Part shown: in pieces, positions 25,254 through 55,715 of the stretch
Layout: every line of letters starts with the position of its first letter
Position numbering within the stretch: position 1 is the first letter of the stretch
NCBI GenBank assembly: GCA_015654695.1
Contig: JAATGJ010000095.1
Coordinates: 1-64,000 of the forward strand
Source: Chitinophagales bacterium
GTDB lineage: Bacteria; Bacteroidota; Bacteroidia; Chitinophagales; Chitinophagaceae
Direction: 5' to 3'
DNA: 64,000 bases
Made by a program: the position numbers and the translations under genes
Notes under the pieces: model-generated
The model's input: the letters and a program-made list of their open reading frames with translations, nothing else
The model's database searches: none
Told to the model about the DNA's origin: nothing

Positions 25254-28200
25254 TTACTCCTTTATAAAACGCAGCAACTCGTTGGAAGAACCATTCCAAA
25301 GCCTGATAAAATAAACGCCCTGCGGCAGACCGCTTATATTGATCTCTCTTTTAGCGGACAGTCCATTGATGCTTTCACGTTTCAGTATTTTTGTATCCAC
25401 GGAAAATATCTCTATTTTTCCATTGGTGATCAGGTTACCAAAGCTTATAGTGATGATGTCTTTAGCAGGCACAGGATAAACAAATGAGCTTACCAGTCTT
25501 TTATCAATATTAATAAATACGATCTTGCTATAGGTGTATTTTCCGTCCTGGTCCGTTTGTTTCAGGCGATACCATGTAATGCCGGACTGGGGGTTTACAT
25601 GAAGGTATTCATAATGCTGCGCTGTTGCAGAATTTCCCTGTGAAGCAACGGTTCCTAATAAAGCGAAATTCACTCCATCCCTGCTTACTTCCACATCAAA
25701 CCGGTTGTTGTCCTGTTCTGAAGATGTTATCCAGTTCAGGAGGGTGTTTTGTTCATTCGTAACGGTGGCGCTGAAATCAGATAATACGATAGGAAGTGAT
25801 ACTGCGGCATCTACCAGGAAGAAGCGGGAGAATCCTGTGAATGAAGCTGTGAATACAGTAGTACTTGAGCCAAGCGTAGTTATTGTTGGAGTAACAATTA
25901 TGGTATTGGCAGATGTGGACGCAGCGGCTGATGCAGCAGTTGTTTTTGCAATTCTAAGGCTGCTGGCGGTCTTTCCATCCAGTTCGGTATTATCAAAGTA
26001 TAATGCGATTGTATAATCAGTCGTGCTAATATTGGTAGTAGGCGTAACGGCAAAAACTTTCGCAGAGCGTTCTCCGCCCTGGTAACTGACCCAGGCAGTA
26101 CCGCCCGCATCTAAAGAGGATGTAACGCAACCCAATGAAGCATTGACGCTGCCCAGTCTCATCAAAAGCTTACTGTTATTAGAATATAAATAATCATTGC
26201 TGCCAATGGCAATATGTTTAGTTGATGTTGCGGTAGCTGCTGTTTCAATAAGAGTAGCTGTAGTAGAATAACCAAATGTCATATTGGCCCTGCTCAAAGA
26301 AATACTTGAAGCGTTTAAACTACAACCTGCAGTAGCGCCTGAAACATAATTTGAATAAGTAGTATATTGAACAACTGCATTAGGCATGCTGCCCTCCATA
26401 ATATCATCAGCCGCATCCGCGGTAGCGTTTTCAAAGCAAACATTCACTACAACGTTCGACAATCCATCCCATGAAAATGGAGTAGAGAAAGCAATGTTGT
26501 TATCACCTGTTGTAGTTGTATAGGCTTGTGAATATACCTGAGTAAAGGAAGGTGATACGAAGCCAGTAGTAAGATCGGTGCTGGCAGTATGACCAAGGGA
26601 AATAGTAAATCCTGAGAAAGGCTTTGTACTATTTTTTGTAAGCACCCTGAATTTTAAACTGGTAAGATTAGCAACGCTATTGAGACCAGCTGTATTCATC
26701 TCGGCTTTGGTGATAAGGTATTGCACCCTGTGCCTGACCTTACTGCTCCTGAAACAAGATCCCCCTGTTATATTAGTTGTATAAGCTGGACCTATGGAAG
26801 CAAGTGTTCCTGTAGCTGTGCCTACCGGGGCCTGGTCATTATCGTTTAAGGTGAAAGTCAATGTAGGACTGGTGATCCCTTTTGTGGCATCTCCACCACC
26901 ATTGTTCACTGTAAAATCAATAATAGCGGTTTCGGCTGATTCCTCATTTTCATCATCATAAACCCTTACAGTAAATGATTGAGCTGTAGTAACACCGGTA
27001 TTAAATGTAAGAACATCGCTTGGACTCGCAAAGTTGCCATTGGTGGTTACATCATAATCCAATCCTTTTATACCGGTACCGCTATAGCTGAGTGTAGCGG
27101 TAGCTGTCGCAGTTGGCGCAGCGCCTATTACCATTTGATAAGTATAATCAATATAAGTGCGGCAGCCGGTCGTGGTACCGGTAATACTTTCTGTTCGGGA
27201 AGCGGTAGCCTGGCTGAAATTAATAACGGCGCCACAGGGTACCAGCGCCATATTGCTGCCAGATACGAGGCTGGCTCTTGATGGAAGGCTCATAGCTGCC
27301 TGCATACGCGCCTTCTGATCGTTGGTAAAAAGTGTATAGCAATTGGTGTAGCTCATGAAATTGCTTTCTGTGTTGAGACTATACGGTTTTACAGGGCCCG
27401 AGGTACAAGTATTATTTCCAGTGCGGCAACTGAAATCATATACACCTGCTACATTGTTATTGGAAATAGGATCGGTATCGCAGACTAAGTCCCCATCACT
27501 ATAGCATGTTGGAGATGCTGTGTAAGGAGGGCACTGGGAGCTATTAGCTGATCCCTGGAAAGGATGATAGAGATTTAGGGCATGGCCAATTTCATGCGGC
27601 AAGGTACTTTCACCAGATACCATTTGCGTTGCCAGCATGACAGTGCCATCCAAAGAAGCCGACGCACCGGCGAAATAAGCGTATCCCGCAATAAACTGTC
27701 CTGAAGTACCATCAGCGCCGTCAATTTTATTCACTACCCAGATATTGTAATAATCAGAAGGATTCCAGCGGGCAAAATTTTTCAGGGTAAGATCGGGAAC
27801 GCCATTGGAGTTACTGCTGTTCACTCCAAAAGATGTATAGTTAGGAATGGAAGAAGCATCCACCCTGTCTATACCGTTGGTTGCGCCGCAGGTGGGTGTT
27901 CTTTGCGCTAAAGCAAATTGTATATCAATGTCACCTGCAGCTCCACCTGGAGAAGGGGCTGTCATGCCGGGATAGGTGCCGGCATATACCTGGTTAAGAT
28001 AATTGATAGCGCCTGTAATCTGCAGATCTGTAGGATTGTAAGTACTACCTATTGGACCGCCAGTATGCATTACGTGCACTACCACTGGAATGGTGTAAAG
28101 AGCCATCGTCCGCATTGTGCGGGAGGGTGTCCGTAATTCCGGGTGGGCATCTATATATCGCCTGATCGAAGTATTAGCTTCGTTGATTCGCTGTGCATAC

Positions 28201-28319
28201 CCGGGGTCTGTTGCCAATAGATTTTGATGAGCCAGGTCAAAGCCGCAGGGAGGTTGAGCTGTAAGACCGGTTGAAAAGAAAAGGAAGCCAACGATAAGTA
28301 ACAGGACCTGATTTTTCAT
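25254..28319 (-). CDS. Secreted M43-family zinc metalloprotease with Calx-beta-like domain and T9SS type A sorting tail
   Basis: A 1021-residue exported protein. The signal peptide is MKNQVLLLIVGFLFFSTGLTA. The protease domain (about 70-350) has the zinc motif HEIGHALNLYH (HExxHxxxxxH) and a downstream Met-turn (NFMSYTNC), as in pappalysin-like M43 enzymes. A Calx-beta-like segment follows (about 385-490, GLDYDVTTNGN ... VYDDENEESAETAIIDF), then beta-sandwich repeats and a fibronectin-like stretch (NTLLNWITSSEQDNNRFDVE). The last about 80 residues (FVYPVPAKDIITISF ... LPQGVYFIRLWNG) are a T9SS type A C-terminal sorting domain, so the protein should reach the cell surface or medium. It probably degrades external protein. 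Confidence 0.92.
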   Translation of the reverse strand: MKNQVLLLIVGFLFFSTGLTAQPPCGFDLAHQNLLATDPGYAQRINEANTSIRRYIDAHPELRTPSRTMRTMALYTIPVVVHVMHTGGPIGSTYNPTDLQITGAINYLNQVYAGTYPGMTAPSPGGAAGDIDIQFALAQRTPTCGATNGIDRVDASSIPNYTSFGVNSSNSNGVPDLTLKNFARWNPSDYYNIWVVNKIDGADGTSGQFIAGYAYFAGASASLDGTVMLATQMVSGESTLPHEIGHALNLYHPFQGSANSSQCPPYTASPTCYSDGDLVCDTDPISNNNVAGVYDFSCRTGNNTCTSGPVKPYSLNTESNFMSYTNCYTLFTNDQKARMQAAMSLPSRASLVSGSNMALVPCGAVINFSQATASRTESITGTTTGCRTYIDYTYQMVIGAAPTATATATLSYSGTGIKGLDYDVTTNGNFASPSDVLTFNTGVTTAQSFTVRVYDDENEESAETAIIDFTVNNGGGDATKGITSPTLTFTLNDNDQAPVGTATGTLASIGPAYTTNITGGSCFRSSKVRHRVQYLITKAEMNTAGLNSVANLTSLKFRVLTKNSTKPFSGFTISLGHTASTDLTTGFVSPSFTQVYSQAYTTTTGDNNIAFSTPFSWDGLSNVVVNVCFENATADAADDIMEGSMPNAVVQYTTYSNYVSGATAGCSLNASSISLSRANMTFGYSTTATLIETAATATSTKHIAIGSNDYLYSNNSKLLMRLGSVNASLGCVTSSLDAGGTAWVSYQGGERSAKVFAVTPTTNISTTDYTIALYFDNTELDGKTASSLRIAKTTAASAAASTSANTIIVTPTITTLGSSTTVFTASFTGFSRFFLVDAAVSLPIVLSDFSATVTNEQNTLLNWITSSEQDNNRFDVEVSRDGVNFALLGTVASQGNSATAQHYEYLHVNPQSGITWYRLKQTDQDGKYTYSKIVFINIDKRLVSSFVYPVPAKDIITISFGNLITNGKIEIFSVDTKILKRESINGLSAKREINISGLPQGVYFIRLWNGSSNELLRFIKE

Positions 28320-45955: not shown

Positions 45956-46326
45956 CCTGGAAGCTGGTAATGCCCTTCATAAAAAAATAACATTGCTTTT
46001 CTTCTCTTCTTTCCTGATTATTATTAGTTTTACCCCGCATCGGATTATAGAAAATCTATATTTCATGTACCTACCCCACTGAGAACGCTACACCACTAAC
46101 GTAGATCTGCCCGTTTTTGTAATATCTTATGCATCTGTTTCACCTGTATAAGTTAACATGGTGAAGTTGTATAAAAATTGATGCAGTTATTTATTATCCT
46201 CCTGTCCATTCGTGAAATCCCATTGGTTCATTCCATTCCTGTACAGAAATACCATTCGTTTTTCCAATCCTTAAAGGCCATTAGAGAGTTAGTGTGTTGA
46301 TTTTTGTTTTAATCTAATTGCTGAAA
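45956..46326. other. Upstream region of the large secreted-protein locus
   Basis: A 371-base AT-rich stretch with no supported gene. TTTTACCCCGC (46029) and CTACCCC (46071) resemble the ACTACCC repeats upstream of the barrel gene at 44480, hinting at shared control, but the spacing (about 41 bases) is only roughly two periods. No convincing -33/-7 pair is seen. Confidence 0.4.
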
Positions 46327-49300
46327 ATGGTCAAGACGTACATAAGGTTAATGGTTTTTTTCCTGTTTACTTTTAATGTGGCTGAGTCGCAGGTGACCAG
46401 CTATCCTATTACTTTCAGCAACACCGCAGGCGGTCTCACAGAAAGCAATGGTATATGGACTGCCAGTGCATCAGGGGCCTGGGGTCATGTTGGATTATCC
46501 GCATTAAAATTTGACGGCAATGCACGTATAATGATGCAGTATGCGGCAACAGATGCGTACTATGGCATACTCGGAGTGGATACTTCCCATTCATTACCCG
46601 CATCTCCTTTTTATAATGATATCAATGCAGGCGTTGTAATATACCCGGGCGGGGAGGTTAAGAAATTCCAGAACAATGCAGGTAATTCGGTGGGTACCGT
46701 AGTGATGGGAGACTGGGTTTGCCTCTACAGAACCGGGTCTTCTTTTAAAGTACAGAAAAGTTCTGATAACAAAGCTACCTGGACAGACCTGGGCGCTTAC
46801 ACTTTTACCTCGTCCGCTTCTCTTTCTATAACTTCCTCAGTGTTTCAGACCGGGAAAATTTATTCACCAACACTGGAACTGTACAATCCAACAGTACCCA
46901 TTATTTTCAGCACTACCGCAGGCGGGCTCACGGAAAATAATGGCGTATGGGCAGCCAGCGCATCAGGAGCCTGGGGACATGTTGGATTATCGTCACAATT
47001 ATTTGAAGGCAATGCCCGTATCATGATGCAGTATGCAGCAACAGATGCCTACTATGGGATACTTGGATTAGATACTTCCAATTCATTACCTGCATCACCT
47101 TACTATAATGATATCAACGCAGGTATAGTGATATATCCCGGCGGCGAGGTGAAGAAGTTCCAGAACAATGCAGGTAATTCAGTCGGCACCGTCGTGGTGG
47201 GGGACTGGGTTGGCTTATACCGGGTCGGATCTGTTCTTAAAATACAGAAGAGTACGGATAATAAAGTAACCTGGACAGACCTGGGCACTTATACTTTTGC
47301 ATCATCCGCTCCCTTGTATATTACCTCTTCCTTTTATCAAACAGGGAAAATTTATTCACCAACACTTCAATTTGCAACGATTGATAATGACGGTGCATGC
47401 AACGCAATTTCATTAACGGCAGGAGGAACACCACGCTGTGTAAATACTACGCTGGCTACTTCTGTGAATGATCCTGTCTCTGCATGTACTGCGCCTAACA
47501 ATTCTGTATGGTATCAATATACCGCTACAACTACAGGAACCGTGCTGTTGAATATGAAAACTCCCGCGTCGCCTGCCAACCCCCTGCACGGATGGGCATC
47601 CTGGTACACCCGTTCAGGAATATGCCCTGCTGTTTCATTTTCACCAGTTGGCACTTGCCAGCAATTTGGCGATGGTGGCAATAATGATATTGATAATTTA
47701 CTTTCGCCGGTACTTACTGCCGGTACTACTTATTATATTTTGATCAATGGTTTTGCAGGAGATGTAGGTGAGTTTTGCATAAGCATTCCCGCCTGCTCAC
47801 CTCCGTTATCAGTATTGGTTGACCACATCACCAGTAACAGCGCCAGCGTAAACTGGACAGGTACAGGAACATTTATCCTGGAGTATGGTCCTTCCGGATT
47901 TATACCGGGTACAGGCGCTGCTGCGGGTGCAGGTGGCACTGTTATTAATCCTGCCACTTCATCACAAATTATCAGCGGGCTTACTGCTGTCAGCAGTTAT
48001 GATGTTTATGTAAGACAAAATTGCGCAGTGAGTAACCAGGGTTTCAGCAACAATTCAATAGCGGCAACTTTTATCACACCGGGCCAGGCGCCAGTCAATG
48101 ATGATTGCTCCGGCGCTATTGCTCTTACGGTTTTTGATGGTGGTTGCGACAGCGCTACTGCCGGCACAACATTTAATGCGACTACTTCCACTAACACACC
48201 ATTACCTGAATGTGGAATGGATGCGGCTGGTTATGATGATGATGTATGGTTCAAATTCACACCTGTGACCGGACAGCTTTTTGCTACTGTTGATTTTGTA
48301 TCAACCGGTGGAGATAACAACTTCGTGGCGCAGATATATACTTCATCTGATAATACCTGTTCCGGAACATTGGCTTTATTTGCGTGCAGTGAAGACAGCG
48401 GACCCGATAACCTCTACAGGTTTACCAGCATGCCCGTTACGGCCGGAACCACCTATTTCATCCGTGTTTTTTCTTACAACAAAGGAGTAAATAGTCAATT
48501 TACAGTATGTGTTAGCAACGCACACATGATCAATGATAATGCAGCCGGTGCTGTTTTAATAAATGTAGATGCTGGCTGTACGGGTGCAATTTATACAAAC
48601 GTGGGAGCTACCCAGTCTGTTGGTGAACCGACGGGTAGTTGTTCCAGCACTACCGGCTATGCGACGGCATGGTATAAATTTAAAGCGCCTGCCGGTGGGG
48701 CCGTAAGGATCAGCACGGCTGCAGGTTCCGGTAATACTTTGACCAATACAAGGGTGGCGCTATTCGATGCAGGCGATGTAAATAATTATAATACTTTCAC
48801 TATTATCGGCTGTGATGAAGATGGTGGCTCGGGTAGTTTCGGATCTATGTCCGTACTGTATGCTACAGGCCTCACTGCCGGCTTCACTTATTATATACAG
48901 GTGGACAAATTTGACAACACAGTTGCGGAGGGCACCTATTGCATCACCATTGATAAATTGAAGGACAATATGCTCTCTGCTGCCAATAATTGCAACAGCG
49001 TTTACCAGGCACCCGTAGGTTCGATTGCTTCTTACAAAGGATGGGTACCCCTGATGGATGAAAACAGTAAACTTATCGCATTGGTAAGAGACACATTGGG
49101 TGGCCGCGTTGATGCATACACCGTATCGCAAAATATAAACGCAGGCGCTGTACGCAAGGACAATACTTCCGGTGAATATTACCTGAACAGGAGCTATACT
49201 ATTAATAATGCTGCAGCCACTAACACTGCCGTCCATCTTCAGTTCTTTTTTCTCGCCAGCGAACAGGCCTCATTGGCGGCTGTTGATCATGCTGCGGATG

Positions 49301-51255
49301 CCCTGGTCAACCTGCGGGTGACACGACAGTCTGCTATTACCTGCCAGCCTGATTTTGTAACAGCGAACGGTACTAATTCAGAACTACAGCAAACAGGCAG
49401 CGGTATCAGCAATGGTGTTGGCTGGATAACGGTTAACACAACCGGTTTCTCTAATTTTTATATTCATTCGGTCAAATCATATTTAACGGCAAAAGTATTT
49501 TTGCAGGGAGCCTACAATGCCAGTCTTGGCAGGCATAAAGATGTAACACCTGCCTGGGCCAATGTATTGAACACTTACGCAAAGAACCAGCCTTATAATC
49601 CTGTAAAATATGAGGGGTTTGGTGCAAATACTCCCGGTGGAAAAGGACAACAGGTAGTACATGTCACCAACCTGGATGCTACAGGGCCGGGTTCACTGCA
49701 TGATGCTATCGGCAGCAACCGTACCATCGTATTTGATGTGGCCGGTACTATCAACAACTTCAACTGGGATTCTTCTATAGAACCAGGCGTAAGCTTTTTA
49801 ACCATTGATGGATCTACGGCTCCCGCACCCGGTATTACACTCGATAATGGCAACAGCCCTTCACGTGTGAATGGGTTATCATTCCAGTATGGTTGTCATG
49901 ATATCATTGTTAAAAATATAAGAGTGCGCAATGCTGTGAATGATGGTATTAATGTTGTTGGCGGATATAATATGGTCTTTGATCATGTTTCAGTGGCAGA
50001 CTGTGGTGATGGGAACCTGGATATTACCGATGGCGCACACGACATCACTGTTCAGTACAGCGTCTTTGGCCATAGCGGAAACGGGGCCATGCTGATTGCC
50101 TATCCCGGCACAAAGGATATCAGTCTTCATCACAACCTGTTTAACAGTACTGGCGCTGGTGTGGGAGAAAGAAATCCTTTAGTGCATAATGCCATCAATT
50201 TCGTTCCGAATATTATTTCCTACCTGATGGCGGATTATACTAACAATATAGTGTGGAACTGGGGCAATACAAATGGTGGTGGTTATGGCAGCGGTGCAGA
50301 TTATGGCGGTACATTGCAGGTGCGTAATAATTTTTACCAGAGTGTCACCCTGCCCGGAAGCGCTATCGTGGTGAACAAGGAAAGTATCGGGGCAAAAGTG
50401 TATGCTTCCGGAAATATAAGTGGTAATGCCGGTATCAACCCCAATAGTGTGAGCAATATGGCGGCTCCCTGGTCTGTTGCGGCAGTGACAACACAGGATG
50501 CCTGTACAGCGGCAGCCATCGTACTGGCACAGGCCGGCTGTCAGCCGCGTGATGCCATTGACCAGGCTCTTATTAATACAGTTTCGCTGTCTAACTGCCC
50601 GGCTACTGTTGCGGAAGGAAATTATACCGGTTCTGAAAGTGTAGCCAATGGATTTTTTAAATCTACTCCTGCAGATACAGATATTGTGGATTGGGTATTA
50701 TTGGAAATAAAAAACAGCTCTGGTATTACTAAGTCACGCAATGCCGCATTTGTACGGGAAGACGGGAAGATCGTTGACCTGGACGGAACCTCTGCCATAT
50801 CACTGTATGGTCTTGGCTCAGGTATTTTTAATATAACAATCAGGCACAGGAACCACCTCGGTATTAGTACACAAAATGGTTTTCTTTTTGTAACAACCTC
50901 CCTTGGGGTGCCACCCTCAAATCCTCAGAATTTTGATTTTACCACGGCAACCGATGCAGCTATTTTTGGTGATGCACTTGCATTCAAGGTAGTAAATGGA
51001 ATTAATGTAATGGTTGGTGGTAATGCTAATGGTAATAACAATGTTCGATATGCAAATATTAATAATGATCCTAGTTCAATTCTCGTTTTTCTTGGAGGAA
51101 TAGTTACGGGAGTTATGACCAATATCTATTCCCCCAATGATGTAAACTTGGACGGAACGGTAAGATATGCAAACTTGAATAATGACCCGGGATTCCTTTT
51201 GAACAATGCATTGGGAGGAACTATTACGGCAGTGATTATTGAGCAAAAAAGGTAA
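46327..51255 (+). CDS. Giant secreted multidomain protein with inserted pectate-lyase domain and C-terminal dockerin-like repeats
   Basis: A 1642-residue exported protein; the ATG at 46327 gives a clean signal peptide (MVKTYIRLMVFFLFTFNVAES). In order: two tandem beta-sandwich repeats of about 164 residues that are nearly identical, a CUB-like domain (about 355-490), a fibronectin III domain (about 495-585), two further CUB-like domains, then a long C-terminal module. That module is interrupted at PYN (1089-1091) by about 340 residues of a PL1-type beta-helix (EGFGANTPGGKGQQVVHVTN ... AGCQPRDAIDQALI) and resumes at about 1432. It ends with two loops, GNANGNNNVRYAN and DVNLDGTVRYAN, resembling dockerin calcium sites. 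No standard T9SS tail is present. The likely role is surface attack on pectin-like polysaccharide. Confidence 0.85.
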   Translation: MVKTYIRLMVFFLFTFNVAESQVTSYPITFSNTAGGLTESNGIWTASASGAWGHVGLSALKFDGNARIMMQYAATDAYYGILGVDTSHSLPASPFYNDINAGVVIYPGGEVKKFQNNAGNSVGTVVMGDWVCLYRTGSSFKVQKSSDNKATWTDLGAYTFTSSASLSITSSVFQTGKIYSPTLELYNPTVPIIFSTTAGGLTENNGVWAASASGAWGHVGLSSQLFEGNARIMMQYAATDAYYGILGLDTSNSLPASPYYNDINAGIVIYPGGEVKKFQNNAGNSVGTVVVGDWVGLYRVGSVLKIQKSTDNKVTWTDLGTYTFASSAPLYITSSFYQTGKIYSPTLQFATIDNDGACNAISLTAGGTPRCVNTTLATSVNDPVSACTAPNNSVWYQYTATTTGTVLLNMKTPASPANPLHGWASWYTRSGICPAVSFSPVGTCQQFGDGGNNDIDNLLSPVLTAGTTYYILINGFAGDVGEFCISIPACSPPLSVLVDHITSNSASVNWTGTGTFILEYGPSGFIPGTGAAAGAGGTVINPATSSQIISGLTAVSSYDVYVRQNCAVSNQGFSNNSIAATFITPGQAPVNDDCSGAIALTVFDGGCDSATAGTTFNATTSTNTPLPECGMDAAGYDDDVWFKFTPVTGQLFATVDFVSTGGDNNFVAQIYTSSDNTCSGTLALFACSEDSGPDNLYRFTSMPVTAGTTYFIRVFSYNKGVNSQFTVCVSNAHMINDNAAGAVLINVDAGCTGAIYTNVGATQSVGEPTGSCSSTTGYATAWYKFKAPAGGAVRISTAAGSGNTLTNTRVALFDAGDVNNYNTFTIIGCDEDGGSGSFGSMSVLYATGLTAGFTYYIQVDKFDNTVAEGTYCITIDKLKDNMLSAANNCNSVYQAPVGSIASYKGWVPLMDENSKLIALVRDTLGGRVDAYTVSQNINAGAVRKDNTSGEYYLNRSYTINNAAATNTAVHLQFFFLASEQASLAAVDHAADALVNLRVTRQSAITCQPDFVTANGTNSELQQTGSGISNGVGWITVNTTGFSNFYIHSVKSYLTAKVFLQGAYNASLGRHKDVTPAWANVLNTYAKNQPYNPVKYEGFGANTPGGKGQQVVHVTNLDATGPGSLHDAIGSNRTIVFDVAGTINNFNWDSSIEPGVSFLTIDGSTAPAPGITLDNGNSPSRVNGLSFQYGCHDIIVKNIRVRNAVNDGINVVGGYNMVFDHVSVADCGDGNLDITDGAHDITVQYSVFGHSGNGAMLIAYPGTKDISLHHNLFNSTGAGVGERNPLVHNAINFVPNIISYLMADYTNNIVWNWGNTNGGGYGSGADYGGTLQVRNNFYQSVTLPGSAIVVNKESIGAKVYASGNISGNAGINPNSVSNMAAPWSVAAVTTQDACTAAAIVLAQAGCQPRDAIDQALINTVSLSNCPATVAEGNYTGSESVANGFFKSTPADTDIVDWVLLEIKNSSGITKSRNAAFVREDGKIVDLDGTSAISLYGLGSGIFNITIRHRNHLGISTQNGFLFVTTSLGVPPSNPQNFDFTTATDAAIFGDALAFKVVNGINVMVGGNANGNNNVRYANINNDPSSILVFLGGIVTGVMTNIYSPNDVNLDGTVRYANLNNDPGFLLNNALGGTITAVIIEQKR
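46408..47376 (+). repeat. Tandem duplication of an about 492-bp domain unit
   Basis: The first unit (from 46408) and the second (from about 46900) are closely similar at both protein and DNA level; for example GGGCGGAGGT... and PGGEVKKFQNNAGNSVGTV occur in both. They are joined without spacer. The close similarity suggests recent duplication or ongoing gene conversion. Confidence 0.8.
49600..50619 (+). other. In-frame pectate-lyase (PL1-type) domain insertion
   Basis: Relative to the neighbouring 938-aa protein, this about 1020-bp segment is extra. Flanking residues align on both sides: GRHKDV..W.N.LN....QPYN before, then NYTGSESV.NGFF matching NYNGGETVPAGFF after. The inserted domain is itself complete, from EGFGA to the AGCQPRDAID end motif typical of these lyases. 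Confidence 0.75.
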
Positions 51256-51649
51256 TGAAGTGTAGAATCTTTATTTTGGGAAGAGAAATGTGCTACGGAA
51301 TGACTAAAAATACGCATGAATGTCAATTAGTTTTAATTCGTGTCAGCTTTCCGCTTCAACTCGTAAATCGAACCTTGTTTTTTATCACCAAAGCTTTGCA
51401 TAATAAGCAAATATTACTATATTGTCGGCTGGAACCACTCTTTCCAAAATCCCCTGATTACCATTTTAAACCATTTATCCCACAAACTGCCCGGCAGCAA
51501 GTGTGATTTATGTTTTGCTATGGTTAGTTGAGGCTCGTTTAATTGTTTCTGCAAGAAATCCTATATCACGTCCGGAAAGAACCTGCCTGTCCACCCATCT
51601 TATAAGAGAACCTTTATCTATTTCCCTATTATCAAAAGAAAACTTAGTT
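51256..51649. other. Spacer between the two large secreted-protein genes
   Basis: A 394-base stretch with an open frame continuing into the next gene but no coding character. I see no promoter box of good quality and no repeat. It may simply be a long leader. Confidence 0.35.
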
Positions 51650-54466
51650 ATGAGGGCGATCTATTTATTGTTATTAACGGGTATAGGGTCAATGATGGCG
51701 AATGCGCAAAATAATACGGCGTATTCATCTGCACCTGTAAAGACAACCAAAGAAGCTAATTTAACTGTCTCCGGGGTATTTTCATCCTCACTCAATTTTC
51801 AATCTTTCATACAGGATTATTATAACTCCATAAATACTGAAGCAATCGGCAACCGGGCAGAGCAAAAAGAAAATGAAGATGAAGATATGACCGTCATTGA
51901 ACCGGTCACTGGTTCCGGTGATAGGAGTGACCGGAATACCGGTACACTCATTGTTTGCCCTGCTATTACTTCTTATCCTTTTACCGAAACATTTGAAGCT
52001 GCCAGCGCTACCCGCACTTGCTGGATAAATGAATTTGTAACCGGCTCACTCAACTGGATATATGCTGCCGGCGCCGGTGGCGGAGGTTCCACTACCACTG
52101 CACACGGTGGCGCATTGAATGCAACATTTTACGAAGGTGATTATGAAACGGAGAATGTAACAAAACTTGTTTCACCCCCTTTTAACCTTAGTTCCCTTTC
52201 AGGTGGTGCACAGCTCAGGTTCTGGGCAGTGAATGAGTTATGGGAACCTGACCAGGATATACTGCGTGTATATTATAAGACATCCGCAGCCGGGAGCTGG
52301 AACTTATTATCCGGCGATATCACTAATATCAGCAACTGGACTGAATATACATTCACACTTCCTGCCACCAGCAATGATTATTATATTGCTTTTGAGTCAA
52401 CAGAAAAATTCGGGCATGGAGTTGCTATTGATGATGTAATTGTAGAAGCGCTCCCATCTTGCTTCCCACCCATAGGACTTGCTATCATTGCAACAGGTCA
52501 GTCAACAGCCCATCTAAGCTGGACAGCCCCAACAACGGCGCCATCCGCTGGTTACGAATGGAAAATTGTTTTAGCAGGACAGGGTTCCGGCGGAGCGGCA
52601 CAGGCATCTGGCTCTACAGGCGCTGGTGTAGTAACAGCCAATGCTACCGGCCTTAACCCCGGTACTTCTTATGATCTGTATGTTCGTTCTCATTGCGGGG
52701 GAGCAGATTACAGTTTATGGACAGGACCTAAAAATTATAAACTATATGATGATGCACCCGGCGCTATTACATTAACAGTAGGTGCAGGCTGCACAGGCGC
52801 CGACTTTACGAATGCAGGAGCTACAAAAAGTAATTTGGAGGTTTATCCCTCCTGTTCAGGTGCGGCAATTGCCCCGGTATGGTTCAGGTTTGTGGCGCCT
52901 GCAAGTGGCGCTGTTCGTGTCAGCACCGATACATTAGCGGGAACATTTATTGATTCCAAGCTGGGCCTTTTCTCTATACCAACCCCGGCTGAGGTTACGG
53001 ATTATTCAAAATTTACGATCATATCATGCGATGATGATGGTGGTACAGCCCTTGGTTTCGGATTTATGGGCATGCTATATGCTACAGGGCTCACACCCGG
53101 CACCACTTACTATATTGCAGTGGATAAATTCACAGGTAGTACCATCTCCGGTACATTCTGTATCGCGGTAGATGAACTCAATGCCAGTATGATTGCACCG
53201 GCAAATACCTGTGCGGATCTGTATCAGCAGCCTGTTGGTTCCAACACCTATACAGGATGGGTACCATTAATGAATATTGACAGCAAGCTGGTGGCGATGG
53301 TACAAAACTCTGCCGGTGGGGAAGCAGACGAATATACAGTGTCTCAGAATATTAATAATGCTGCTGTAAGGCAGGATGCTGTGTCAAAAGAATATTACCT
53401 TGACAGGAGTTTCCTTATAAATAATTCAGCGGCTGCTGCCAATGTGAATGTTCAGTTCTTTTTTCTTAATAGAGAATTGACAGCTCTCCATGATGTAGAT
53501 GCCGCAGCGGCATTATCCAGCCTGCGGGTTACCCGCCAGACCGGATCTGCCTGCCAGGCAGATTTTGCAGCAGCCAACGGCGTTAATACTGATCTTACCC
53601 AAACAGGCAATGGAACAGTCAACGGAGTTAGCTGGATAAAAGCTATTACTCCGGGTTTTTCTAATTTCTATATTCATTCGGCTAAATCGCCGCTAATAGT
53701 AAAGACTTTTCTACAGGGCGCATACAGTTCAGCACTGGGCCGACATAAAGATGTAACCACCACATGGCGGAATATTTTAAATGCCAACGCCTTGAGCCAG
53801 CCTTATAATACTGCTGCTTTTGGTAACTATAATGGGGGAGAAACAGTGCCTGCCGGGTTCTTTACTTCTGATGCTGCAAACGCACTGGACATTCTGGACT
53901 GGGTATTGCTGGAAGTAAAAGATGGAGCCAATGTTTTAGTGGCACGTCGCGCAGCCCTATTAAGAGAAGATGGAAAAATAGTGGACGTGACCGGAGATAC
54001 ACTCGTCACATTTAATGGACTTGGCTCAGGTAATTATTATTTAACCATCAGGCACCGCAACCATCTAGGCATCAGTGTAGAGAATCTTTTACCCTTAACG
54101 GCAAAAGCTCTTGGAGTTGCTCCACCCACCAGTACGTATGATTTTGATTTTACCACAGCAACTGATGCAGCCATTTTTGGCACTTCGGTTGCATACAAAA
54201 TTGTAGGCACAAAAAATGTGATGATATGCGGTAATGCCAATGGTAACAACAATGTTCGTTATGCAAATCTTAACAATGACCCTGGTGCCATTCTTGTTTC
54301 CCTCGGAGGAATAGTCACGGCAGTTGTTAGCAATATCTATTCACAATATGATGTAAATATGGATGGAATAGTAAGGTATGCAAATCTGAATAATGATCCG
54401 GGATTCCTACTAAGTAATGCATTAGGAGGAACTGTAACTCTAGTATTAACAGAACAAAAGCGATAA
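51650..54466 (+). CDS. Large secreted protein with MAM-like and FN3 domains and C-terminal dockerin-like repeats
   Basis: The ATG at 51650 gives a signal peptide (MRAIYLLLLTGIGSMMANAQ); the 49 codons upstream are not coding-like. The 938-residue product has a charged N-terminal stretch, a MAM-like beta-sandwich (about 115-275, WINEFVTGSLNWIY ... VAIDDVIVE), a fibronectin III domain (about 280-365), a CUB-like domain (about 370-490), and then the same C-terminal module as the upstream 1642-aa protein, here uninterrupted (QPYN at 718-720 followed directly by GNYNGGETVPAGFF). It ends with GNANGNNNVRYANLNNDPG and DVNMDGIVRYANLNNDPG loops. No catalytic domain is recognised, so it may be a binding or structural partner. 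Confidence 0.83.
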   Translation: MRAIYLLLLTGIGSMMANAQNNTAYSSAPVKTTKEANLTVSGVFSSSLNFQSFIQDYYNSINTEAIGNRAEQKENEDEDMTVIEPVTGSGDRSDRNTGTLIVCPAITSYPFTETFEAASATRTCWINEFVTGSLNWIYAAGAGGGGSTTTAHGGALNATFYEGDYETENVTKLVSPPFNLSSLSGGAQLRFWAVNELWEPDQDILRVYYKTSAAGSWNLLSGDITNISNWTEYTFTLPATSNDYYIAFESTEKFGHGVAIDDVIVEALPSCFPPIGLAIIATGQSTAHLSWTAPTTAPSAGYEWKIVLAGQGSGGAAQASGSTGAGVVTANATGLNPGTSYDLYVRSHCGGADYSLWTGPKNYKLYDDAPGAITLTVGAGCTGADFTNAGATKSNLEVYPSCSGAAIAPVWFRFVAPASGAVRVSTDTLAGTFIDSKLGLFSIPTPAEVTDYSKFTIISCDDDGGTALGFGFMGMLYATGLTPGTTYYIAVDKFTGSTISGTFCIAVDELNASMIAPANTCADLYQQPVGSNTYTGWVPLMNIDSKLVAMVQNSAGGEADEYTVSQNINNAAVRQDAVSKEYYLDRSFLINNSAAAANVNVQFFFLNRELTALHDVDAAAALSSLRVTRQTGSACQADFAAANGVNTDLTQTGNGTVNGVSWIKAITPGFSNFYIHSAKSPLIVKTFLQGAYSSALGRHKDVTTTWRNILNANALSQPYNTAAFGNYNGGETVPAGFFTSDAANALDILDWVLLEVKDGANVLVARRAALLREDGKIVDVTGDTLVTFNGLGSGNYYLTIRHRNHLGISVENLLPLTAKALGVAPPTSTYDFDFTTATDAAIFGTSVAYKIVGTKNVMICGNANGNNNVRYANLNNDPGAILVSLGGIVTAVVSNIYSQYDVNMDGIVRYANLNNDPGFLLSNALGGTVTLVLTEQKR

Positions 54467-54533
54467 AATTTTTTTAAGCAACAATAAGAATTAAATAAAG
54501 TAAAAAATATCTATCACTCAAAAGTAAGTTGAA

Positions 54534-55715
54534 ATGAAAAAAATAATACTAATAACTACTGTTCTGGCGCTAAGTATCCTTGCATCGGCACAACTGGTAC
54601 CACGCCTGGAAACAACCATTAAAATAGTCAATAATAAAGCTCGGATAGCTGTCAAGGCAGTAGGAGGACCTATCACAGGAAATCCAACTGGTGCTACCTT
54701 CAGTGTAGCTATCCCCGTTGCCAATGCAGCAGCAAGTATGACTGCTCCTACGATAATTGATCCTACGCGTATCCCTCCGCTATTTACTATTCCAATTGGT
54801 AATTATTCAGATGCAACTTATGAATATTTTAATCTGGTTTATACTAGTAGTACCGCCTCTGTAACTTTTGCTGATGGGGTGGAGTATGAATTATTGGAAT
54901 TAAATTTCGTAGGCTTACCTGGTAGTACTTCTGTAACATTGGTTACCTTACCCGATGGTAATCCCTCTGCTCCTGATGCGGCTAACAATTGGTACAATTT
55001 TTTAGAGATTAGCGGTGCAATTGTGTCAGATCCTCTCAATTTGTTTTATCAATCTGCTACAAGCGGCGCGCCAACGCAGCCTGGTGATTATTCCGCACCT
55101 CCCGGTATTGTTGGGTTTGTAACTTCTACAAGCCTCATTACATTACCCGCCACTTTCATCAACTTCAGTGGTTATAAAAACGGCAGCAAAAATACTTTGT
55201 TATGGGCAACTGCCAGTGAAAGTAATAACCGTGGTTTTGAAGTGTTGCGTTCAACAGATGGTACTAATTATTCTTCTATTGGTTTTGTCAATTCACTGGC
55301 TCCTGCCGGTACCAGCACCACCAATATCAGCTATTCATTTAATGATAATAGCGTGGCAGGAAATAAACAATACTATCGCCTGAAGCAGGTGGATATTGAT
55401 AACCGCAGTAAGCTTAGCAATATTGTATTGATCACCGGTGCTAAGCCATTGACATTGGCAATAGCAGGAGTATTTCCCAACCCGGCCAATGCAGAGGTGA
55501 ATGTGATCATTGATGCACCGGGAAGAGATAATGTGACACTGGTAGTAACAGATATATACGGCAAAAATGTGAAGCAAAGAGCAGCCAATGTAGAAACAGG
55601 ATCTAATACTATACCAGTTGATATCAGCGCACTGGCAAAAGGCAGCTATCTGGTAAAAGTGTTGTGCAAGTCATCGGATTGTGAAACAGCAGTAAGTAAG
55701 TTTGTAAAACAGTAA
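54534..55715 (+). CDS. T9SS type A sorted protein with N-terminal cohesin-like domain (putative anchor)
   Basis: A 393-residue exported protein. After the signal peptide (MKKIILITTVLALSILASAQ), residues about 20-165 form a beta-sandwich with the pattern seen in cohesin and cohesin-like domains (ATFSVAIPVANAAAS, ATYEYFNLVYTSS, GVEYELLELNFVGL). Residues about 205-305 are a fibronectin-like segment frequent before sorting tails (NTLLWATASESNNRGFEVLR). The end, AGVFPNPANAEVNVII to LAKGSYLVKVL, is a canonical T9SS type A C-terminal domain, which leads to covalent or lipid-linked surface anchoring. It directly follows two proteins with dockerin-like ends, 67 bases after the second. The cohesin assignment is inference. 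Confidence 0.75.
   Translation: MKKIILITTVLALSILASAQLVPRLETTIKIVNNKARIAVKAVGGPITGNPTGATFSVAIPVANAAASMTAPTIIDPTRIPPLFTIPIGNYSDATYEYFNLVYTSSTASVTFADGVEYELLELNFVGLPGSTSVTLVTLPDGNPSAPDAANNWYNFLEISGAIVSDPLNLFYQSATSGAPTQPGDYSAPPGIVGFVTSTSLITLPATFINFSGYKNGSKNTLLWATASESNNRGFEVLRSTDGTNYSSIGFVNSLAPAGTSTTNISYSFNDNSVAGNKQYYRLKQVDIDNRSKLSNIVLITGAKPLTLAIAGVFPNPANAEVNVIIDAPGRDNVTLVVTDIYGKNVKQRAANVETGSNTIPVDISALAKGSYLVKVLCKSSDCETAVSKFVKQ

Follow-up and report, generated by a model that had tools for sequence, protein, structure and literature searches.

A dockerin-cohesin-type protein pair coupled to the type IX secretion system (T9SS) has one precedent, in the phylum Cloacimonadota: a cellulosome-like complex with a T9SS-type attachment domain has been proposed for Candidatus Stygibacter (PMC8542988). 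Here we analyze three adjacent genes, named P0001, P0002 and P0003, on a stretch of 64,000 nucleotides of contig JAATGJ010000095.1 of a Chitinophagales bacterium (Bacteroidota, family Chitinophagaceae); this whole stretch is referred to as the window. The three genes probably encode a divergent pair of the same general type. According to PMC8542988, the likeness lies in C-terminal dockerins on signal-peptide-bearing enzymes and in a cohesin protein whose conserved C-terminal domain would attach it to the surface of the same cell, for which a T9SS review is cited. The cohesin protein of Candidatus Stygibacter is a single scaffoldin-like protein of 3755 residues with tandem cohesins and carbohydrate-binding modules (CBMs), recognized via InterPro annotation, whereas the partner described here has one cohesin-like domain that is unseen by Pfam, is coded beside the dockerin gene and belongs to Bacteroidota.

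The clostridial cellulosome, with its type I cohesin-dockerin and type II cohesin-X-dockerin complexes, shares with the window proteins a C-terminus of two dockerin-like repeats and the fold of a cohesin-like receptor. In addition, the immunoglobulin (Ig)-like module that precedes the repeats here recalls, as a resemblance, the X module of type II dockerins. Unlike the clostridial system, the window contains no multi-cohesin scaffoldin and gives no Pfam match to these modules, its dockerin-like loops carry an insertion, the cargo among ten relatives is mixed, and a T9SS tail takes the place of Gram-positive anchoring. Non-cellulosomal cohesins from Clostridium perfringens glycosidases (2vo8, 2jh2 and 2w1n) and from Archaeoglobus (2xdh) are single modules, and they are among the fold matches described below. 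To our knowledge these are parts of glycosidases or stand-alone modules and have no T9SS-tailed partner. P0003 shares the C-terminal sorting domain of T9SS type A cargo (TIGR04183, PF18962). Ordinary T9SS cargo has a tail of its own, whereas P0001 and P0002 have none and would depend on the partner. A passage in a 2018 paper states that cohesins and dockerins, the cellulosomal components, were not identified, consistent with other Bacteroidetes genomes (PMC5831590). Among the papers listed in our literature searches, no title or abstract opening describes the gene pair or a carrier role for the partner. Some such modules could be reported by Peer and others (2009), who surveyed noncellulosomal ones.

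The features of the locus are as follows (signal peptides were assigned by eye).

46327..51255, + strand: P0001, secreted protein of 1642 residues with signal peptide, dockerin-like tail and inserted pectate-lyase-like domain
49642..50568, + strand: pectate-lyase-like (beta-helix) domain that P0001 has and P0002 lacks, immediately preceding the Ig-like module
50623..51018, + strand: Ig-like module (DWVL...HRNHLG) and linker of P0001, ahead of the dockerin-like repeats, from the tail alignment
51019..51252, + strand: two dockerin-like repeats of P0001, 39 residues apart
51650..54466, + strand: P0002, secreted paralogue of 938 residues with signal peptide and dockerin-like tail
53828..54229, + strand: Ig-like module and linker of P0002
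54230..54463, + strand: two dockerin-like repeats of P0002, 39 residues apart
54534..55715, + strand: P0003, secreted partner of 393 residues with signal peptide, cohesin-like domain, middle domain and T9SS type A tail
54591..55145, + strand: cohesin-like domain of P0003 (the part modelled, residues 20-204; predicted TM-score (pTM) of the AlphaFold2 model 0.77; VIA-align rows 1-40 all cohesins)
55470..55712, + strand: T9SS type A C-terminal sorting domain of P0003, from profile matches

A preliminary description of this DNA, made from the letters alone, had reported these three open reading frames (ORFs) and the two repeats at the ends of P0001 and P0002, and all of them were recovered. P0001 has 1642 residues when read from the ATG at 46327 (an alternative ORF from the TTG at 46318 has 1645), and P0003 starts 68 bp past the end of P0002. 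P0001 and P0002 are paralogues: residues 338-736 of P0002 match residues 707-1105 of P0001 (51%), and the C-terminal parts, 709-938 and 1415-1642 respectively, match at 61%. The absence of a standard T9SS tail from both large proteins was borne out, as neither gave a match to the T9SS tail families, and so was the canonical type A tail of P0003, which matched PF18962 (E 4.2e-11) and TIGR04183 (E 7e-9), both above cut-offs. The genome of the window (5.4 Mb, 187 contigs) encodes the T9SS pore protein SprA in a long form (2398 bits) and contains 56 matches to the T9SS tail family. Judged by our T9SS-tail profile, no complete dockerin-tailed protein had a T9SS tail of its own in any of our surveys (0/63 in the family of the window, 0/99 in the named loci and 0/74 in the phylum).

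The predicted fold of the N-terminal domain (N-domain) of P0003 agrees with the cohesin-like strand pattern that had been proposed for it. Residues 20-204 were modelled with AlphaFold2 from an alignment of 21 rows, which gave a nearly all-beta model with a mean predicted local distance difference test score (pLDDT) of 76.8 and a pTM of 0.77. VIA-align, which re-ranks Foldseek's own candidates and covers those chains only, was applied to Foldseek's best 1000 chains. The first 40 rows of the resulting list were all cohesins, with Z falling from 8.8 to 7.1. At its head was 6kgf_C (Z 8.8, root-mean-square deviation 3.6, 127 residues aligned), and the first non-cohesin fold in the list was a GH20 enzyme at Z 6.7. 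A C. perfringens cohesin stood at rank 7 of the Foldseek list itself (E 0.045). For a second such N-domain, that of L111, cohesins occupied rows 1-38 (best 2jh2_C, Z 8.5), with row 31 carrying only the title 'protein-protein interaction module'. The Pfam cohesin family PF00963 matched none of 40 N-domains (34 from the family survey and 6 from the named loci), and Pfam Cohesin matched 2/40 phylum partners, weakly (best E 0.012); these 40 are the rows of alignment A8, made from 41 complete partners, of which the omitted one looked unrelated. Thus, the N-domain of P0003 is cohesin-like by predicted fold and is not a member of the Pfam family.

The two tails end in motifs, GNANGNNNVRYAN and DVNxDGxVRYAN, that begin at residues 1565 and 1605 of P0001 and at residues 861 and 901 of P0002. 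Loop position 1 corresponds to the second residue of GNANGNNNVRYAN, and with the count started there the repeat period is 39. Both loops had been said to match the spacing DxNxDGxV; this holds for repeat 2, but repeat 1 reads NxNxNxxV in both proteins. Ligand positions were counted in 44 of the 63 complete family tails (alignment A1). Loop positions 1, 3 and 5 of repeat 2 are occupied by D in 44/44, by N in 43/44 and by D or N in 41/44 tails, and the same positions of repeat 1 hold N or D in 44/44, 37/44 and 41/44. The tails therefore have the two tandem calcium-loop-like repeats of a type I dockerin, with D or N at positions 1, 3 and 5 and a hydrophobic position 8. A canonical loop, that is, 12 residues with Asp at position 12 running into the helix, is absent from the window tails and present in 5/44 family tails. 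Among phylum tails (alignment A9, 54 of 76 tails) a canonical loop was present in 44/54 and two or more in 19/54; 200 shuffles of these tails gave a mean of 0.5 tails with a canonical loop and 0.005 with two or more. By sequence, then, the tails of other lineages are mostly canonical dockerins.

The best match of the family tail profile in the PDB was a dockerin, 4fl4 (E 0.0024), followed by weaker dockerins with unrelated proteins interspersed. With a threshold of E 0.01, 21 sequences of the PDB matched the phylum tail profile. Two chains with the title serine protease headed the list (E 1.8e-7), X-dockerins and dockerins came next (X-dockerin 2b59_B, E 2.7e-6), and a calmodulin and another non-dockerin protein were also found at E 0.005-0.009. 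Pfam Dockerin_1 matched 5/44 family tails and 16/54 phylum tails at E 0.1, and the NCBIfam scan gave nothing useful for either tails or N-domains.

We then asked how these tails are distributed and which genes adjoin them. The tail module was present in 41/244 genomes of the family (E 1e-5) and in 52/395 genomes of the phylum (E 1e-6), three of the latter being from the window's own family. Within the genome of the window, the tail was found in P0001 and P0002 only and the N-domain of P0003 once, by single-sequence and profile searches. All surveyed regions were picked for holding a tail. The family survey covers 58 regions with 63 of 70 tail matches (two more are those of the window; omitted were three in genome G032 and one each in G182 and G011), and the phylum survey covers 60 regions with 77 of 100 tail matches. 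The 80 best of 553 make up the named loci, and four of these (L103, L111, L130 and L149) share their genes with the family survey. The 58 family regions and the window together hold 66 tail ORFs. In the family survey, among the tail ORFs with a visible downstream neighbour, the same-strand downstream gene was T9SS-tailed in 39/61 cases, as compared with 0/38 for the upstream gene and 0/138 for controls. The T9SS-tail profile was built from family partners, which favours the family count; in a Pfam scan, independent of this profile, Por_Secre_tail matched 40/42 family partners at E 0.1. Thus, dockerin-tailed genes adjoin such partners elsewhere in Bacteroidota, as a co-occurrence survey was expected to reveal if the proposed pair is a real one, although more weakly outside the family.

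A single-sequence search with the N-domain of P0003 reached 3/244 family genomes, and the pairing was therefore read from gene neighbourhood and profiles. In the named loci, the N-domain profile built from the family gave 19 hits below E 0.05; 16 of these immediately follow a tail gene, and four of the 16 had themselves contributed to the profile. The remaining hits are L107, a Segetibacter protein rich in repeats, an additional partner-like gene in L168, and L147, which looks unrelated. Some of the family tails that lack a T9SS-tailed downstream gene precede another tail gene, and scattered copies occur in Segetibacter. Many downstream genes in the phylum regions are partner-like without a T9SS tail detectable by the profile used. 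One of 42 partner-sized neighbours, L065, is unrelated, and we take it to be a kinase from its sequence.

Co-variation of the two proteins was analyzed by comparing distances among five segments in 71 pairs with a T9SS-tailed partner, using Mantel tests with 2000 permutations; such tests do not amount to a full phylogenetic analysis, and fixed positions served as segment borders. Dockerin and cohesin distances correlated with r 0.68, and the partial correlation was 0.54 with the other three segments held constant. The p value of 0.0005, obtained for the 71 pairs as well as for the 39 family pairs, is the smallest possible with 2000 permutations. The corresponding values over the 71 pairs were 0.14 (p 0.04) for dockerin versus middle domain and 0.00 for dockerin versus T9SS tail. 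In the 39 family pairs the dockerin-cohesin partial correlation was 0.60, as opposed to -0.10 and -0.14 for the middle domain and the T9SS tail. Similar dockerin-cohesin values were obtained for the 34 pairs with insertion-type tails (0.60), the other 37 pairs (0.51), the 25 family pairs of the insertion type (0.58) and the 55 non-redundant pairs (0.54). Because the control segments share a gene with the cohesin, descent and linkage alone do not easily explain this contrast.

Together, the architecture, the predicted cohesin fold, the kept ligand positions, the pairing in the family (weaker phylum-wide) and the dockerin-cohesin co-variation are the computational support for what we consider the best reading, and a likely one: a divergent dockerin-cohesin-type pair that is coupled to the T9SS and spread over Bacteroidota. 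P0003 would be a T9SS-exported receptor with a cohesin-type beta-sandwich. This sandwich would bind the dockerin-like repeats at the C-termini of P0001 and P0002, with calcium most likely required, and P0003 would thereby hold these two proteins, which lack T9SS tails, at the outer membrane or outside it. Proteins with a type A tail may end up attached or released, and the statement that P0003 is anchored was for that reason too strong. The term cellulosome is also too strong, as P0003 has one cohesin-like domain, the only match in the genome, and not the several cohesins of a scaffoldin. The same holds for the label of a minimal scaffold-enzyme system, given one cohesin-like domain and one cargo with an enzyme-like domain, itself weakly supported.

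Several results count against this reading. The tails of P0001 and P0002 have no Pfam dockerin match, and these and most family tails contain an insertion of about four residues between loop and helix; since the insertion is absent from most homologous tails of other lineages, the window tails would be divergent relatives of real dockerins. The N-domain of P0003 has no Pfam or NCBIfam cohesin match, and no cohesin is among its PDB sequence matches. Foldseek alone was weak, with a GH9 enzyme as its best match (E 0.012). VIA-align itself warns that a Z near 8 may reflect a common arrangement, although the unbroken block of cohesins in rows 1-40 speaks against chance. The list for L111 shows no gap, its last cohesins and first GH20 rows all having Z 6.7, and L111 is a row of the alignment used for the P0003 model, so that the two models are not independent. 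Pairing was weaker in the named loci (downstream 18/98, upstream 3/80, controls 11/354) and in the phylum (downstream 20/74, upstream 4/44, controls 3/138). A correlation of 0.24 between dockerin and T9SS tail was seen in the 37 non-insertion pairs, and the weak co-variation of dockerin and middle domain, mentioned above for all pairs, was 0.18 in the non-redundant set.

Two further results bear on this point. Both profiles were run against the entire sequence of seventeen tail-bearing genomes, picked in part for their many tails, and the cohesin profile was empty in five of them (G163, G086, G032, G328 and G544). Some contigs of G163 and G086 break off shortly after the tail, and the whole-genome cohesin search was empty as well; G328 and G544 have T9SS-tailed genes beside their tails that are unseen by the cohesin profile. 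The other result concerns a model of a fused chain, obtained by reading the in-frame gene pair of L111 through its stop codon (alignment A7, 19 rows: 6 fused, 7 partner-only and 6 tail-only). Its dockerin part had a pLDDT of about 30-39, with a pTM of 0.44 and a shallow tail alignment, and 10 of the 18 blocks of its cohesin part reached a pLDDT of at least 80. The tail was covered by 12 rows of about 100 existing, as in larger mixes MAFFT placed partner-only rows on the tail, and this shallow alignment may be the cause of the poor dockerin part.

Both profiles matched in 12 of the 17 genomes, and dockerins outnumbered cohesin-like domains in ten of these and equalled them in two. The numbers of dockerins and cohesin-like domains, respectively, were 23 and 7 in G172, 36 and 3 in G631, 24 and 6 in G629, 9 and 2 in G628, 7 and 2 in G625, 5 and 2 in G626, 6 and 3 in G627, 7 and 5 in G630, 5 and 3 in G225, 6 and 2 in G256, 3 and 3 in G085, and 1 and 1 in G215. 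The excess suggests that one receptor serves several cargoes in genomes of this kind, but it may be overstated, the tail profile being the more sensitive of the two. The pair may act earlier on the way out: the P0003-type partner would then be a carrier, to which dockerin-tailed proteins bind in the periplasm and with which they cross the outer membrane via the T9SS pore. We put this forward tentatively and regard it as rather unlikely; it is based on the lack of any T9SS tail in the dockerin-tailed proteins themselves.

Other explanations of the same locus can be weighed with these data. The pair might interact via the conserved Ig-like (HRNHLG) module or another part, with the repeats serving as a calcium-stabilised stalk. 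Seven of the nine invariant columns in the tail alignment lie within this module, and its partial co-variation with the cohesin reached 0.30 in one subset; nevertheless, it was 0.18 over all pairs and 0.13 in the family pairs, where the repeats gave 0.54 and 0.60, respectively, and this makes the explanation improbable. It is very improbable that the repeat tails are a new kind of T9SS sorting signal and the partner another T9SS cargo of the same operon. The tails do occupy the extreme C-terminus, the position of T9SS signals, on proteins that have signal peptides and no known T9SS tail, but they resemble dockerins and not sorting domains (Por_Secre_tail gave one chance-level match among 44 family tails, E 0.057), and the cohesin-fold neighbour and the dockerin-cohesin co-variation would be left unexplained. 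Finally, we give little credence to a generic adhesin or carbohydrate-binding beta-sandwich whose gene adjoins the others through common function without direct binding, which could account for the CBM3 and integrin beta-sandwiches among the fold matches and for the lack of cohesins among the PDB sequence matches, but not for the 40 cohesins that head the fold list, the dockerin-like tails, or a dockerin-cohesin co-variation that exceeds that of other segments of the same genes.

As to the cargo, the pectate-lyase-like domain that had been assigned to one of the large proteins was traced to P0001 by weak matches. This extra domain of about 310 residues sits between the two regions that match P0002. 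It gave a partial match to NCBIfam PelZ (E 3.2e-16, far below the PelZ cut-off), a match to 1pxz (E 5.8e-4) and a match to Pfam Beta_helix (E 0.0036, below cut-off). At the point equivalent to 49642-50568, P0002 passes from the shared region directly into the Ig-like module, which looks like gain or loss of the domain between the paralogues. The Pfam scan of P0002 found no catalytic family above cut-off. Ten hand-picked tail proteins carry mixed cargo (esterase-like, FG-GAP and TIG repeats, propeller and sortilin-like repeats, deiminase-like and others), three of the ten being without any match; a role restricted to polysaccharides is therefore not supported. Profiles with toxin names gave chance-level matches in the scans of N-domains and tail proteins.

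A number of other observations were made in the course of this work. The cohesin-like genes at L107 (9767-12598) and L126 (6542-8170) extend into long arrays of tandem repeats and in this resemble large surface adhesins. In L144 and L168 (Spirosoma, Emticicia), the tail gene is followed by genes for two small proteins whose N-domains are similar. The partners in L214, L215, L217, L218, L220-L226, L230-L232, L235 and L241, from several families of the phylum, end in another conserved tail, QGLYNVVLIAYPVDDPTVELSRAIVKLQLLR-like, which could be another sorting signal. In L045, L057, L058 and L084, from the sister genomes G163 and G086, contigs stop within about 190 bases of the tail end, perhaps at near-identical paralogue tails, and the following gene is out of view. 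Elsewhere in the window, another large gene (25254-28319, - strand) is also T9SS-tailed (match 25278-25481). A Bacteroidota-type promoter consensus had one match in the window, away from the three genes, where 3.6 are expected by chance.

If the pairing is real, a dockerin-cohesin-type assembly is spread over the phylum and has been missed by current profiles, and it suggests a route to the outside for secreted proteins that lack a T9SS tail. The two-gene units are direct test objects and a source of new protein-binding pairs. Should the partner in addition act as a carrier, one sorting tag would export several proteins in trans, and the T9SS would handle two-polypeptide cargo across the phylum.

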